Virus record (IMG/VR): IMGVR_UViG_3300033145_002795
Coordinates: 1-22,267 of that record
DNA: 22,267 bases
From: a virus
Strand: one strand, 5' to 3'
Position numbers and translations under genes: made by a program. Shown piece after piece: positions 3,055-19,636 of this stretch. Below the pieces are notes generated by a model. That model did no database searches and was not told where the DNA came from. It saw only the letters and a program-made list of their open reading frames with translations. Position 1 is the first letter of the stretch, and each line of letters starts with the position of its first letter.

Positions 3055-4403
3055 AACACATCCACACTATTATCTTTACTGAAATACGGATCTTCCAACC
3101 TTTCCCAAGTCGGCCGACGATCATCATACTCAGCTTTCACCGCACCAACAGAACTAACAAAAGATTGACCGGTTGTTACAATATTCGAATTCTTAATAAC
3201 ACACGCATTCAAACCCTCTATCCTTTTCTTAACAATATCAACAAAACCCCTACCATAACTAACTGTAAAATCATCCAACGTTTTAGAAGTTACCGGACCA
3301 CCAGCAAAATAAATTCTATAAATCAAATCTAATTTAGTTTTGCACTCAACATAGTTTCGTGCCGCTTGCGGAACAGCATCATCATCCCACGAAGTTGTTG
3401 CTACACTCAATATATAAGATGAATTTTCATATATTAACATTTCTATTTCGGAATTATCAACTTTTTTTATCAAATCTCCTAAATTCGATCTAATTAATTT
3501 AACTGTACTATAATATGGGCTCACAGCTGTTTTAAATGTAAATAAATAATCATTACTAAGAACACCACTTGCTGATATATCGGTTATTCCGCTCTTCAAA
3601 ACAACATTGTATGTACTTGACGGCACATACTCATCAGCCAACACACCTGATGGTGTAATCGTCAAAATTTTTTCACTGACACTGTTAATATATGTCTCAG
3701 AATCAACAGGAAACCCAAGTAAATCTTCACCAGTTATTAAAACTCTATTAACCAGTGAATCAGGATCAGGCTCCAAATTAAATACAACTTTTATTCCACT
3801 TGTTGCAACATTTGTTTCACCATTTATCGGGCTCGTAGACGCAACTTTAAAAACTATTGGCTCATCCGGCGGAAAAATATATTGATCAGGACCTTGAGGC
3901 ACAGGAACAATTGTTCCATCGGGACCAACATCGGCCGCCGTAGTGACAATATGCGAAACCGGTTCACCAGTACGCCCGAATGTTTCACTATAAACACCAT
4001 CTTCACCTGTAAAATACGGCCCGTCGGCAAAAGACACGCCACTCTGCGCTAATGGTATTGTTTTATCAACATTTTCACCAGTTGTGAAATAAGATATAAA
4101 ACTATTACCATCCCAATTGTCACCCGATAATGTTTTAATCCCACTATCGCCGCCAACAAGTATGATCGTATATTGAGTATTTTTCTTTAAATAACCATAA
4201 AGCTGAAAAGTAAGAGTTTTTGTTCCAACAACATAATCCGGAACCCCACTAACTATTTCTTCTGTATCTGTTTGAACTAAAATAACAGACGAATCTGTTA
4301 TTGTTGATCTATCTAGCGCCTCATCAAATTTAAAACTGAAAAAAACATTTAAAACAACACCGGTCGCAAAATTTTCGGGAAACGATTCCAGTATCTTTGC
4401 CAT
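3051..4403 (-). CDS. Two Ig-like (Big_5/SbsA-type) domains fused to an adaptor-like domain
   Basis: This 450-residue protein has three visible parts. Residues about 4 to 108 and 186 to 291 are two copies of an Ig-like domain: each starts with a Pro-containing turn (ESFPENFATGV; VASTSPINGETNVATSG), continues with a strand (VFFSFKFDEAL; IKVVFNLEPDPDS) and ends in an FTT or FKT strand after a long-strand YTIIL or YNVVLK motif. This is the SbsA/Big_5 pattern. A linker (109 to 185) rich in Gly, Pro and Asp lies between them. Residues about 296 to 450 (STVKLIRSNLGDLI..., ARNYVECKTKLDLIYRI) are helical and resemble head-tail adaptor proteins. Such a fusion would place Ig domains on the outside of the neck. 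The ribosome binding site is weak (AGGAG, far from the ATG). The Ig domains are quite clear; the adaptor role is inferred from the C-terminus and position. Confidence 0.6.
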   Translation of the reverse strand: MAKILESFPENFATGVVLNVFFSFKFDEALDRSTITDSSVILVQTDTEEIVSGVPDYVVGTKTLTFQLYGYLKKNTQYTIILVGGDSGIKTLSGDNWDGNSFISYFTTGENVDKTIPLAQSGVSFADGPYFTGEDGVYSETFGRTGEPVSHIVTTAADVGPDGTIVPVPQGPDQYIFPPDEPIVFKVASTSPINGETNVATSGIKVVFNLEPDPDSLVNRVLITGEDLLGFPVDSETYINSVSEKILTITPSGVLADEYVPSSTYNVVLKSGITDISASGVLSNDYLFTFKTAVSPYYSTVKLIRSNLGDLIKKVDNSEIEMLIYENSSYILSVATTSWDDDAVPQAARNYVECKTKLDLIYRIYFAGGPVTSKTLDDFTVSYGRGFVDIVKKRIEGLNACVIKNSNIVTTGQSFVSSVGAVKAEYDDRRPTWERLEDPYFSKDNSVDVL

Positions 4404-13492: not shown

Positions 13493-15220
13493 TTAAAATG
13501 TTTTCCTCTTCGGTGTTAGAACACGATTCCGACGCATAATACCAGCATTAGCAGATGAAATATGTTTTTTTCTAGCCTGTCTTGTCCTATTCAAATAATT
13601 CGGCATATTTCGCGATATAAGTTTACGAAACTTCGACACATTGGGATCAAACCCATCATCCCTCAATGGTATCGTTGTCGGAACATGATATGTGCTTAAC
13701 TGCTTGGTATATGTTGTTGTGCGATATTTCTTTTTCTCATTAATCTCCAAATTAAATCCAAGCAGTGCCAAAAAAAGAGCATTAAGTGCATGGTCATTAC
13801 CACCACCATCATAGACTGGTCTATCAGTCCCTCTTGAAAATTTAGCAACCTTGAATTCTCTCATTTGACCGATTATTTTATTCTTATCATCCTCATCATC
13901 CGGAATACTAATTAAATGATTCTCAACAACTATAACAGCATTATTAACCATATATGGTTTTGCAGGCTTATCTTCTTTTTTACCAGTAACAGGATCCCTA
14001 ATTTCTAGATTTCCACCATAATCTACAGGTTTAACTTTTTTGTCCAACTTTGTCATGGGATGATCTTTGCCATACTTTCGTAATGTTTCAATCTGCATCG
14101 AACCAAACCCCTTATCGACATAAATAGCTAAAAAATTCATAGTTTTTGATAAACTAATAACCCTTTGAACCGATTCCGTTTGAGTGTATTCTGATTTTTC
14201 GACTCTAATATTATCAAAAACTCTAAATCTACCAGAATCTTTCAACCTTTCAAGTATAACAATCGCGGCACCATATGTCTCATTCCAATCAACGCCCATT
14301 ATATAAAGATTATCTTTATTATATTTTAACCCAGTAATTGTTTTACCCTTTACAATTCTATCACGATAATTATACTTTTTCATTATCGCATTAAGATCCT
14401 GATTTCTGAAAACACCTTCTTCAACTGTTCCCCAACCAGCCTCAACCTCGTGTATGTATGTGGTCTTTGACATACTTTTTCTCGCAAAGTCATCGGCTTC
14501 CTTTGTCCAATTAGGGCTCTTAAACGATGAGTAATGAAATTCTTTTATATCCGGACTATTGCACCACTGATAAAACAATCCGCGGCGACCGGACGGTGTT
14601 GATGACGCTATTATTGTCGCTCTTGGATTATTAAAATATATGGGCAAAACAATCTCAGTTATAACATCATCCAACCCATGGTCCATCTCATCTAATAAAG
14701 TTAAATCTGATTCCGAACCACGCATTCCCCCACCCTTTGATGAACTCTTAGCTCCTAACGTAGCACCATTTATAATCGAACCATTTTCAAATTCCATAAT
14801 AAAAGGCTTTTTAACATATCTTGATGGTTTAACACAAGAACCCATCATCAATTTATCTAAAAAATTAAAAATAAGTCTTATTTGCGACTCATATGGTACA
14901 GCTATTAATACTTTATAATTAGCATTTGTAAACGCAAACCATAATGCTTCAACCGATATAACCAAAGTTTTCCCTAATCGTCTGCCTGTCCTATAAACCT
15001 TAATACGGTTTTTTAATATTTTTTTTCCACTCTCCCCAACACCCCATATCGCCTGATAGCGTAACATATTTTTTTGATAACTCCGCAACTTCAGTGGTTT
15101 ATATGGATTATTAGGATCTCTTAATGTTGCCTCAGCCCATTTAACAGGATCTTTAATAACATCTAGTTCTTGTTTTTCTTCTTTTGTTAATGGTTTGTTT
15201 ATTTGTTCTATATCACTCAT
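13493..15220 (-). CDS. terL: Terminase large subunit
   Basis: The 575-residue protein is the packaging motor ATPase and headful or site-specific nuclease. It shows a Walker A-type loop RTGRRLGKT (residues 77 to 85), Walker B with catalytic Glu in LTLLDEMD (173 to 180) and coupling motif ASSTPSG (205 to 211). The RNase H-like nuclease half follows, with candidate metal-binding Asp residues D311 (GVDWNETYG), D369 (AIYVDKGFGS) and D476 (GGNDHALNAL). Length and order of motifs are typical. No good Shine-Dalgarno site precedes the ATG at 15220, and only six bases separate it from the previous stop. It is translated probably by reinitiation, which fits its low copy number. A start at the ATG is supported by the absence of another candidate in frame. 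Identification is firm. Confidence 0.95.
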   Translation of the reverse strand: MSDIEQINKPLTKEEKQELDVIKDPVKWAEATLRDPNNPYKPLKLRSYQKNMLRYQAIWGVGESGKKILKNRIKVYRTGRRLGKTLVISVEALWFAFTNANYKVLIAVPYESQIRLIFNFLDKLMMGSCVKPSRYVKKPFIMEFENGSIINGATLGAKSSSKGGGMRGSESDLTLLDEMDHGLDDVITEIVLPIYFNNPRATIIASSTPSGRRGLFYQWCNSPDIKEFHYSSFKSPNWTKEADDFARKSMSKTTYIHEVEAGWGTVEEGVFRNQDLNAIMKKYNYRDRIVKGKTITGLKYNKDNLYIMGVDWNETYGAAIVILERLKDSGRFRVFDNIRVEKSEYTQTESVQRVISLSKTMNFLAIYVDKGFGSMQIETLRKYGKDHPMTKLDKKVKPVDYGGNLEIRDPVTGKKEDKPAKPYMVNNAVIVVENHLISIPDDEDDKNKIIGQMREFKVAKFSRGTDRPVYDGGGNDHALNALFLALLGFNLEINEKKKYRTTTYTKQLSTYHVPTTIPLRDDGFDPNVSKFRKLISRNMPNYLNRTRQARKKHISSANAGIMRRNRVLTPKRKTF

Positions 15221-15226
15221 AATTGC

Positions 15227-15994
15227 TTATACAATTTCAGCGTATTGGGCCGCTTCATTCCCCATAAATCTACGACCATTCACATGCGATCTTTGTATAG
15301 CTTGAACAGCTTTTTGACGTTCTGTTTTGGCCGCGGCCGTCATATAACCAACTCCTAAATTTCCACCAAATTCCAATCGCCTTATATTTTCAGATATCCT
15401 GTCCATCGTATTAACAGCGGCAACTCCCATTTTAAATGTCGCACCGACCATACTAGATAATACTTCGCCAATAACAACGCCACTCATTATAGGCAAAGCC
15501 ACCTTACCAACAGCCGAACCGATAACTGTCCATTTCCCCATTTCACCTGCACCAGCTTTAATTGCCGCATTCAAATTAAATCCCGGTATTTTATTTTTCA
15601 TTGCCAAACCAAGATTATTTAAAAAAGTTGGCGGATCATATGTCGAAACCGATGTTTTTTTCAAAACACCTCTAAGCGCTTTCATAAATGGTGCCTTATG
15701 CTCACTTCCAATTTCTAATGCTTTCATCAAATTAGCTGCACCACCTTTATGAAAACCCTTTAAAAATGTTCTTCCGTATCCTGCTAATTTACTTTTACCT
15801 AAAAAACCATATTGTCCTGGTAATACACCTGTCCAAAAAGAAGGATAAATTGTAACACCAGCGCCGCCTGCCATTTGACTAGCGGTATATAAACCATATA
15901 CGCCCGTTAATTGTGCTTTAATATCGGGAAATGGGTTTGCTATATTTACAGCTGTACTAATTGGAAAGGGCGGGCCCGTTCTATCTTCAGCCAT
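15227..15994 (-). CDS. Glycine/alanine-rich hydrophobic protein before terminase
   Basis: I do not recognise this 255-residue protein. It is rich in Gly and Ala, with a hydrophobic stretch near residues 150 to 200 (VIGSAVGKVALPIMSGVVIG, then further apolar residues) that could insert in a membrane. Its C-terminus (RQKAVQAIQRSHVNGRRFMG, then NEAAQYAEIV) has an R..a...I..S..n.R..lGnEA pattern that I associate with structural proteins of large phages. This is recalled, not searched. A GAGG site six bases before ATG at 15994 supports the start. The gene stands with three neighbours of similar character between a TerS-like gene and terL. A virion-internal or membrane-active role at DNA entry is possible but not shown. 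Confidence 0.6.
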   Translation of the reverse strand: MAEDRTGPPFPISTAVNIANPFPDIKAQLTGVYGLYTASQMAGGAGVTIYPSFWTGVLPGQYGFLGKSKLAGYGRTFLKGFHKGGAANLMKALEIGSEHKAPFMKALRGVLKKTSVSTYDPPTFLNNLGLAMKNKIPGFNLNAAIKAGAGEMGKWTVIGSAVGKVALPIMSGVVIGEVLSSMVGATFKMGVAAVNTMDRISENIRRLEFGGNLGVGYMTAAAKTERQKAVQAIQRSHVNGRRFMGNEAAQYAEIV

Positions 15995-16060: not shown

Positions 16061-17554
16061 TTATATCGTCGAGGCGTGACGCATTTTGTGAAGTGCCAAT
16101 GAAATGCCATCCGAACTCATGTGGTTTACAGGCATACCTGAATTATGCGAAATAATACCATTTGCTAGAACAAACAAATGATTTTCGCAATCAACTTCTA
16201 AATCATAAAAATTCAAATTATTCACTTTCTTAATTTCTTTAACAACAACTTGTCTAACATTTCCTGATGAAAATGAAGAAATCTCCTTAAAAACACTTTT
16301 CTTCTGGTTTTCCGTTTTCCTAATCTCATATTTTGTTGCTTTATATTTTTTTCTCAACTCCTTGTTATAAACTATCCTAGGATAACTACGACATCGCCAA
16401 TTTAAAAGCGAAGATATTAAATGAATTTGATCTTCTAATTTAGAATTTCGTGTTAAACCTATGACCCATCTATCATTGTCTCTATCATAATATCCATCAC
16501 CAAGTAAAAAAGAATCCATCATAACATTTAACCATTTTTCACCATAAGAAAAACATACATTTTTCAAATACTTATTATAAGCATGATCACCACCAACAAA
16601 ACGAGACATAAGGTCTTTTGTTAATTTTGACCCATAAATTGAAACAACTAAAGTATTTTCACTATCACTTTTAACTCTTTTTGTTCCGGATATTCCATAT
16701 TTACTTTGAAAAAACAAAATTATTTTATCCGCAATATCGCTTTCATCTATATTTAATGTAAACTGAATTCCGTCATCTGTTAAATTGCCTTCAGCCAAAT
16801 ACCAACCCACTATATCAGCCCACTCTAATCCAAAAAAATCAGGATAATCACCAACTTCCCGTTTCATATAAAACACACTACATATAACATCATTTTTGAT
16901 AATATTTTTTGCTTGTTTTAATACAACTTGAGAATTTTCTGATACTAATAATCTATGATCTTCACTACAAATAACAACAGACCCATCATCGCAAATAAAT
17001 TTCAAACCATGATTTTTTTCTGATTTCCATATATTTTTAATATTAACCCACACAACATTCCCATCACCATCAATTGACGGCACTATCGCATTAAGTTTTT
17101 TTAATTTAGCTAATTCCCTAATTTGTATAAATTCAAAATTTCCATTGGTTTTACAAAAAATATGAGATACACCGGCAATACACCGCTTTGACCATGATAT
17201 ATAACCAGGACCTGTTCCACTGGCGGCAATTCGACCAACGGGCTCAGCTTTAAATGATTTCAAAAGACCGCCTATCATATTAACACCCATAGTTAATGCT
17301 GTTGCGCCAACTAACCATGGGGCAGGATGTTTAGCAATCGACGACATACTAACCCGAGTCCAATTTGGCATATTAGAAACAATATTACGCATCCATTTTG
17401 TATCAATATGTGTTAAGCTTCTATAATTTTTAGAACTAACTCCAAACATTGGACGCATTAATGATGAGCCTGTATCACCCAAAACCCTTTGAGGGATAAG
17501 TTTACTTGTATATGGTGATCGTTTAACAAATAAATCTTGAACAAATCCAGCCAT
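16061..17554 (-). CDS. Intein-containing small structural-type protein (precursor)
   Basis: The precursor of 497 residues consists of a 124-residue N-extein, a 347-residue intein (separate entry) and a 26-residue C-extein. Protein splicing would yield a 150-residue protein joined at SWSKR/SGMPV. The N-extein is basic with a hydrophobic segment near residues 79 to 98 (PWLVGATALTMGVNMIGGLL); the short C-extein (VNHMSSDGISLALHKMRHAS) has an 'S.DG..LAL.K.RH' pattern that looks conserved rather than random. Together they suggest a membrane-associated or virion protein of unknown function. The ATG at 17554 overlaps the stop of the preceding gene (TAATG). The intein interrupts near the C-terminus, so without splicing the small tail would be lost from the mature fold. 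Confidence 0.75.
   Translation of the reverse strand: MAGFVQDLFVKRSPYTSKLIPQRVLGDTGSSLMRPMFGVSSKNYRSLTHIDTKWMRNIVSNMPNWTRVSMSSIAKHPAPWLVGATALTMGVNMIGGLLKSFKAEPVGRIAASGTGPGYISWSKRCIAGVSHIFCKTNGNFEFIQIRELAKLKKLNAIVPSIDGDGNVVWVNIKNIWKSEKNHGLKFICDDGSVVICSEDHRLLVSENSQVVLKQAKNIIKNDVICSVFYMKREVGDYPDFFGLEWADIVGWYLAEGNLTDDGIQFTLNIDESDIADKIILFFQSKYGISGTKRVKSDSENTLVVSIYGSKLTKDLMSRFVGGDHAYNKYLKNVCFSYGEKWLNVMMDSFLLGDGYYDRDNDRWVIGLTRNSKLEDQIHLISSLLNWRCRSYPRIVYNKELRKKYKATKYEIRKTENQKKSVFKEISSFSSGNVRQVVVKEIKKVNNLNFYDLEVDCENHLFVLANGIISHNSGMPVNHMSSDGISLALHKMRHASTI
16142..17182 (-). mobile_element. Intein with LAGLIDADG homing endonuclease
   Basis: The intein covers residues 125 to 471 of the host protein. Splicing residues are in place: Cys125 as first residue, a block B-like VVICSEDHRLLV (His200), block F-like NFYDLEVDCENHLFV (449 to 461) and block G NGIISHN (465 to 471) followed by Ser472 as the +1 nucleophile. 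The N-terminal block A (CIAGVSHIFCKTNG) is atypical, lacking the common Asp-Thr. The endonuclease insert has two LAGLIDADG motifs, IVGWYLAEGNLTDDG (248 to 262) and MMDSFLLGDGYYD (345 to 357), with KYLKNVCFSYGEKWLNV between them. Acidic residues E255 and D353 are candidate catalytic residues. Both functions therefore look intact. It propagates by cutting intein-free alleles. Confidence is high. Confidence 0.93.
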
Positions 17555-18254: not shown

Positions 18255-18455
18255 TTAATAATTATCCTGATCCTGGTTTATATGCCGTTTACCACCAAAA
18301 TGATTAAGAAAAAAACCCAAACCAGCCATACCACCAAGCATAAGGCCTGTCTTTGCCCCCTTTCTTTTTAAAAACTGATTATTTTTTATAGCTTTTTCAC
18401 TCATTGTTTGTAAAACCCTGATCACTCCCTTTGCGCCATTTATCGGATTAGTCAT
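18255..18455 (-). CDS. Small hydrophobic protein (66 residues)
   Basis: A short gene of unknown function with a GGAGA site before an ATG that overlaps the end of the preceding gene (ATGACTAA). A basic N-terminal half (KGVIRVLQTMSEKAIKN, FLKRKGAKTG) is followed by a single hydrophobic stretch (LMLGGMAGLGFFLNHFGG), a possible transmembrane or amphipathic helix, and a short polar tail. Only two bases separate it from the next gene. This plan is compatible with small membrane proteins of phage, but no lysis motif or signal peptide is seen. It opens the run of hydrophobic proteins before terL. Confidence 0.6.
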   Translation of the reverse strand: MTNPINGAKGVIRVLQTMSEKAIKNNQFLKRKGAKTGLMLGGMAGLGFFLNHFGGKRHINQDQDNY

Positions 18456-19203
18456 TATCTTCTCCTTTATCAGTTTTCTCAGTATCTTTTATTTCACCAT
18501 CCATCACAACACTTACATCATGTTGTTCTTCCATTTGTCTAGCACGTTCTCTCAATTTTGCCGAATAAGTACTCGCATCATCCTTTATAGCTGTAAACAA
18601 TTTAGTCTTAGCTTCTCTAGTTGCAACCATGCTTTTCAATATTTTATCCCGACGAGCCTGCACTTTTGTTTTAACACTCAATGCAATATGCTCTTCTTTT
18701 CGTATCAATGGCTCACCCGTCTGCTCGTTAATACCAACAACATTTTCCATGATAAATCCTTCAGTTGCCAAATAAGCATTCGCCCGGGCATTTAATATAT
18801 CAATCTCAACAAGCTCCATAACTAAAGCACGTTCAATTTTATCATCCCAATCTGCTTTCAAAGATATAATATATTCATCCCGCCATTTTTCCATAAAAAA
18901 TTGCTCAAACGGACAAAGCTTTCCAAGAGGTGCTTTTCCCGCCGCTTGAAGTGGGCATTGGGACGATATCGAACAAGCTTCTGCCAAACACACCATGGGA
19001 ACAGATTTAAAATCACCACTTCCATGAACACCTAAATATTTACCGATATTTTTAACATCATCAGATGTTAATTTTAAAGCTTTAGCATAATCCTCATCAC
19101 AAAATTTAATTAAATTACTAACATTTACATTTTTAATTTCACTAACCTGAATGACACCCGACGGACTAATCATTTGCAATTCTTTCGACTTCTTGTCTGA
19201 CAT
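18448..19203 (-). CDS. Four-cysteine protein, candidate small terminase or packaging factor
   Basis: The protein of about 251 residues is read from ATG at 19203, which has GGAGG nine bases upstream. A longer frame begins at 19233 without such a site. C72, C77, C83 and C97 form a cluster (VCLAEACSISSQCPLQAAGK, then APLGKLCPFEQF), with an ending 'P.G..CP.E' phrase I recall from proteins next to terminase genes in phages of anaerobes. It may bind zinc or an iron-sulfur cluster. The rest is helix-rich, with a basic region (residues about 165 to 230, SVKTKVQARRDKILKSM and on) suited to DNA binding. Its place before terL, with four small genes between, is compatible with a small terminase. No homologous fold can be checked here, so this name is tentative. 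Confidence 0.55.
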   Translation of the reverse strand: MSDKKSKELQMISPSGVIQVSEIKNVNVSNLIKFCDEDYAKALKLTSDDVKNIGKYLGVHGSGDFKSVPMVCLAEACSISSQCPLQAAGKAPLGKLCPFEQFFMEKWRDEYIISLKADWDDKIERALVMELVEIDILNARANAYLATEGFIMENVVGINEQTGEPLIRKEEHIALSVKTKVQARRDKILKSMVATREAKTKLFTAIKDDASTYSAKLRERARQMEEQHDVSVVMDGEIKDTEKTDKGEDND

Positions 19204-19636
19204 AATTGTCATCCTCCAACTGTTTATAATCAAATCGATACACTAAATAACCATTTTCTTTAGCTATTGTTTCTTTCATTTTATCAACTCTTTTGGCTTC
19301 CTCAAATTTTTGCTTTGTCTTATGAAAATGGGGTATATATTCTAAATGCTGCCTTCCGTCTGCTTCAAATATTTTCTTTTTTCCGACAACAAGAATATCA
19401 TACCGTCTATATTTCAACCAACTAAACACACATTCCTGTAAAACAGGTTCTTTAAAAACATCTCTAACTATTTTAAATAATTTGTTCTGCCCTTTAGAAA
19501 TCTTCCTTCTAGGTCTCAATGTTACCATATTATATTTTTTATAATAAATATATTTTTTCCTGTGCTTTGCACATAAAAAACCGGACTTTATTCCTTCACC
19601 ACAGACCCAGCAAGTTCTGAATTTCTCTTGTTCCAT
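19166..19636 (-). CDS. Vsr/DUF559-like endonuclease with N-terminal zinc motif
   Basis: This 156-residue protein has a zinc-type cluster at its N-terminus (C9, C12, C22, H25; TCWVCGE...FLCAKH), followed by a domain with the restriction-endonuclease-like pattern: RRYDILVVGKKKIFEADGRQ (D80, E91, D93) then H97 and a Lys-rich helix, and NGYLVYRF. The phrase 'D..i......fEaDGrqH' is that of Vsr and DUF559 proteins. It would nick or cut DNA with one metal site. It overlaps the upstream gene by 49 bases and the TerS-like gene by 38 bases, so its insertion is compact and in other frames. The start is uncertain because the GGTGGAAG site is poor. A role in packaging or homing is possible; the sequence does not choose. 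Confidence 0.65.
   Translation of the reverse strand: MEQEKFRTCWVCGEGIKSGFLCAKHRKKYIYYKKYNMVTLRPRRKISKGQNKLFKIVRDVFKEPVLQECVFSWLKYRRYDILVVGKKKIFEADGRQHLEYIPHFHKTKQKFEEAKRVDKMKETIAKENGYLVYRFDYKQLEDDNYVRQEVERIAND

Follow-up and report, generated by a model that had tools for sequence, protein, structure and literature searches.

In this study, we identified in the window (the whole 22,267-nt stretch of viral DNA analysed here) an element that, with a probability of about 95%, is a class 1 intein that is mobile, encodes a LAGLIDADG homing endonuclease and lies at 16142..17182 on the minus strand, in the conserved 3′ end of a gene of the head/packaging cluster. The kind of element is known and ordinary; the host protein family is unusual and new as an intein host. 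The precursor gene (16061..17554, minus strand, as are all parts of it given below) is one uninterrupted open frame of 497 aa plus stop. Its N-extein, residues 1–124 (17183..17554), could be aligned with intein-free homologues (L002:5644-6138 and L004:4058-4375); the intein comprises residues 125–471 (Cys125 to Asn471, 347 aa), and the C-extein is the 26-aa tail of residues 472–497 (16064..16141; SGMPVNHMSSDGISLALHKMRHASTI), which alignments and HMM searches of tails mark as the conserved tail of the family. The predicted spliced product has 150 aa and reads ...ISWSKR-SGMPVNHM... across the junction.

The element is regarded as a real intein because HMM matches, an empty site and fold matches to homing-endonuclease inteins all point to it. 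Pfam Intein_splicing (PF14890) matched the precursor with E=2.7e-15 (57 bits; cut-off 35.8), and TIGR01443 (4.6e-6) and TIGR01445 (1e-5) each exceeded their curated cut-offs. The TIGR01445 match begins at residue 125, i.e. at the putative catalytic Cys125 of block A (CIAGVSHIF, 17156..17182), which lies at the splice boundary as set by the empty site. The TIGR01443 match covers residues 449–472 and reaches Ser472, spanning block F/G and the junction FYDLEVDCENHLFVLANGIISHN/S (16139..16210; a slash marks a junction), so that the C-terminal His-Asn is followed by Ser at +1 (SHN/S, residues 469–472). Block B (GSVVICSEDHRLL, residues 191–203, 16946..16984), found by alignment to 6qaz and motif inspection, keeps its His within CSEDH, while Cys occupies the Thr position of TxxH, a feature shared with the gp41-1-type intein. 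Inspection also revealed two motifs of the LAGLIDADG type, each retaining its acidic residue, IVGWYLAEGN (residues 248–257, 16784..16813) and MMDSFLLGDGYY (residues 345–356, 16487..16522), and the part of the fold that holds them matches I-DmoI-type and VMA intein endonucleases. The initial annotation, made from the letters of the DNA, had placed a complete intein at exactly these coordinates, and all the motifs that it named (Cys125, block B His, block F, HN/Ser472 and the LAGLIDADG pair) are present. A profile built from this intein and four inteins of related phages found solved inteins, among them the DnaB intein (2.7e-18) and PI-PfuI (8.1e-15); the match to PI-PfuI, which bears an endonuclease, takes in nearly the full length of the profile and spans the endonuclease region. 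The AlphaFold model of the intein, with a mean pLDDT of 55 and about 80 only over residues 120–220 (the first part of the endonuclease domain), gave its best PDB matches to the TliVMA intein (2.3e-7), PhoVMA and PI-PfuI, with low TM-scores of about 0.28.

The intein-free allele with an exact junction is the decisive evidence for an intein. Two IMG/VR contigs of 203 kb and 27 kb (L002 and L003) carry a terminase 93% identical to that of the window. In both, the counterpart of the invaded gene encodes a protein of 165 aa without an intein, which reads GTGPGYISWAKR/SGMPRNHMSSDGISLALHKMRHASTI, the relative on the 203-kb contig thus showing ISWAKR/SGMPRNHMSSDGISLALHKMRHASTI at the junction; the joined flanks of the window read GTGPGYISWSKR/SGMPVNHMSSDGISLALHKMRHASTI, and comparison of the two shows neither gain nor loss of a residue. 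Of the 60 bases on each side of the junction, 44 and 48 are identical between the window and the empty site. The 106-aa homologue of L004, the third intein-free sequence, is likewise continuous across the junction and has Thr at +1. We looked for homologues that stop at the junction and found the opposite, the intein-free allele reading straight through. The GC content of the intein is 28.4%, against 39.2% and 45.7% for the exteins, and the empty site together with this foreign base composition is the pattern of a recent mobile insertion. Searches of phage genomes, viral contigs and genome contigs found no other intein-bearing allele of the host gene and no close relative of this intein; for this reason the mobility of the intein is something that we infer. 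Window positions 16101-16127, within the tail, share 27 consecutive identical bases with the L002 gene (5644-6141; AAACCACATGAGTTCGGATGGCATTTC), with synonymous differences on both sides; this stretch is possibly part of the homing site, or a matter of chance.

Motifs, fold, exact empty site, conserved target, patchy distribution and foreign base composition were all observed, and the most likely reading is that 16142..17182 would splice by the standard pathway to give the 150-residue protein while its endonuclease would drive homing. The class 1 route is taken from established intein chemistry. Cys125 would start an N-S acyl shift, Ser472 would accept the N-extein through transesterification, Asn471 would cyclise with the aid of the penultimate His, and an O-N shift would then yield the product. 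During co-infection, the endonuclease may cut the intein-free alleles of sister phages at the same site, and gene conversion after cutting would spread the element. On this reading, the gene that the intein has entered, at its conserved 3′ end, is a small one in the head/packaging cluster of a large tailed phage.

Could the site be occupied by a degenerate intein that has lost splicing or endonuclease activity, the host protein being dispensable or working as the precursor? In favour of this, block A is unusual in that it lacks the GD pair common in this block, and Cys takes the usual place of Thr in block B. Nevertheless, Cys1, the block B His, His-Asn and Ser+1 are all kept in one uninterrupted frame, both LAGLIDADG acidic residues are kept, and CSEEH in block B is also found in gp41-1-type inteins, so we consider this reading unlikely. 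A misreading of two chance motifs, or of a fused unrelated domain, as an intein is already refuted by the empty site and the HMM matches and disagrees with the profile and fold matches to solved inteins; nothing was seen to speak for it, and its probability is close to nil.

A more elaborate reading takes the intein for a regulatory switch, which would keep the body of the protein and its conserved tail apart until some condition is met, so that splicing would time entry into assembly. Some inteins splice in a condition-dependent manner, and the insertion does fall between the body and a tail that many phages conserve. Yet about two dozen homologues, as well as the nearest relative, work without an intein, the foreign base composition suits a recent selfish insertion, and the present data hold no sign of conditionality. 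We therefore regard such a switch as highly improbable, and the suggestion in the initial annotation that splicing could time the release of the protein was speculation that found no support, because none of the homologues found, the nearest relative included, has the intein.

The host gene lies two genes upstream of the terminase gene. Between them is a conserved gene for a 255-aa protein (15227..15994, minus strand) that ends AKTERQKAVQAIQRSHVNGRRFMGNEA, as neighbourhood comparison revealed, and the terminase large subunit itself (13493..15220, minus strand; 575 aa; phrog_2, E=7e-27) is without an intein here. As had been proposed, the host is a small protein (about 150 residues) that bears no enzyme signature and is invaded at a conserved site 26 residues from its end. 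It belongs to a small family for which no description was found: no extein homologue scanned gave a meaningful Pfam or PHROG match or matched a known phage structural family in these collections, so that the family is covered by no model in either. We found no virion proteomics in the literature searched that covers any member. No fold is claimed for the extein, because the AlphaFold model of an intein-free homologue (pLDDT 48.6) was too poor for use. The protein had been called hydrophobic, which overstates the case, since it is only moderately so: its GRAVY is -0.08, its top 19-residue Kyte–Doolittle mean is 1.48, and one moderately hydrophobic segment lies in the N-extein (residues 80–98, WLVGATALTMGVNMIGGLL). 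It had also been called virion-type; the position of the gene two upstream of the terminase is suggestive of a virion (head) protein and makes that label plausible but not proven.

Inteins prefer conserved sites. The insertion point here, as judged from alignment, is immediately before the conserved tail of the family and within its most conserved stretch: in the three closest sequences, 25 of 36 tail columns are invariant, compared with 9 of 114 in the body. This bears out the prediction that the C-terminal phrase S.DG..LAL.K.RH would be conserved, as do tail homologues at the same position in distant phages. We considered whether the C-extein might be too short to be of importance and rejected this, since no part of the protein is more conserved. 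In about two dozen distant phages (IMG/VR contigs, Moorella phage MTATph1 and Bacillus phage KLEB27-3), the open frame that occupies the corresponding place has a related tail at its end (e.g., GHLGMSGSLPFAMHKARHRSTV, LGATGDLVFALHNLRHGG and LGASGSMVFGMHNARKG), and none of these homologues showed any sign of an intein; the consensus of the intein-free homologues is LGxxGxLxxALHxxRh.

An HMM built from the three close tails only placed six positional equivalents at ranks 1–6 among 1982 open frames (best E 8.7e-6; ranks five and six at 0.055 and 0.15). With the bridging sequences L064, L067 and L068 added, the GATGDLVFALH group joined, and L040 and L005 scored at about 1e-3. When only the close and the distant extein group were compared, profile against profile, the match was weak (probability 1.9%), and the link between them was made via the bridging sequences and gene order. 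A single-protein scan of viral contigs with the spliced 150-aa sequence gave no match, and a profile scan returned the L002, L003 and L004 contigs again and nothing else; the breadth of the family was obtained with a DNA pattern of the motif and with terminase-anchored neighbourhoods. As an exact pattern, the tail motif was absent from genome contigs, and therefore no host was inferred.

These data add a small protein without a detectable enzyme domain to the phage intein hosts. The preference of inteins for conserved sites points to a conserved C-terminal tail in a terminase-adjacent family of many large phages, and this tail offers a concrete target for mutation and pull-down work. A bolder proposal, that the host belongs to a widespread group of small proteins for phage assembly, which dock on a common partner by their free C-terminal tails, with the intein targeting the tail and splicing gating assembly, seems to us very unlikely. 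The neighbouring families at window 15227-15994 and 18255-18455 (with equivalents in L014, L015, L031-L040 and L045-L071) have conserved free C-termini of their own (T.RQ.A..AI..S..NAR..LGNEA and SN.ELY-like), as if several small proteins of the cassette were docking one partner via their tails.

The closest known systems include the endonuclease-containing class 1 inteins TliVMA (7qss), PI-PfuI (1dq3) and PI-PkoII (2cw7), in which, as in the window intein, Hint splicing blocks flank a two-motif LAGLIDADG endonuclease. They were the best structural and profile matches, yet share 10–12% identity in fold alignments, and their hosts are an ATPase or a polymerase, whereas the host here is a small phage protein. 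The gp41-1-type inteins (6qaz and 6riz) share block B CSE[DE]H with the window intein but are split, while the latter is contiguous and has an endonuclease. The statement that phage inteins concentrate in enzymes holds as a trend, although portal and hypothetical-protein inteins have already been reported in mycobacteriophages (PMC5050341); like the window intein, these lie outside the usual enzymes, in different host proteins. The same work states that all of its phage intein hosts bind nucleic acid (PMC5050341), a property not indicated for the window host protein.

The lineage of the window's phage is, by its sequences, intein-rich. Within the same broad phage group, terminase inteins occur at several sites, Walker A or other motifs, in L004, L007 (two), L039, Bacillus phage KLEB27-3 and Acinetobacter phage ME3, whereas in the window the terminase is intein-free and the small upstream gene is invaded. 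Those of L004, L007 and L039 have the general architecture of the window intein at 20–25% identity; that of ME3, unlike it, is a mini-intein without an endonuclease. The two inteins of L007 (343-1608 and 2062-3399) lie in one terminase large subunit, and the second has an atypical C-terminus (FNIFN/C, without the penultimate His). With inteins present in other genes and at other sites of related phages, one that lies beyond the classic enzymes is less isolated than the window alone suggests.

A Cys-rich gene further upstream (window 18448-19233) has homologues invaded at two different Cys positions. That of L002 holds a 313-aa intein (3323-4261, plus strand) between Leu and Cys (PLGNL/C...N/CPFEQ), with full-length similarity (28%) to the SPO1 gp34.33 helicase intein; by eye its insert resembles a GIY-YIG nuclease (VYLMKRGRFWRIGKT ... 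AEEYY), an arrangement that would be uncommon among inteins, and no GIY-YIG model matched it. That of ME3 (L021:1075-2376) holds a mini-intein without an endonuclease at the other Cys (CAFKQT/CLTGDT...VHN/CPYW), and the ME3 record annotates part of this region as an RNA methyltransferase. In the 203-kb relative (L025, L028, L029), a single frame of 2851 aa contains two inteins, and another frame, of 1686 aa, which by eye reads as a glycosyltransferase, contains one. Free-standing HNH-type genes, also recognised by eye, lie between the 255-aa family gene and the terminase in L004 (5645-6271), L006 (685-1089) and L045 (4278-4583) and are absent there in the window. At 19166-19636 on the minus strand, the window encodes a protein of 156 aa that resembles a free-standing HNH or homing endonuclease (phrog_559, 4.8e-9); its gene overlaps the start of the next one.
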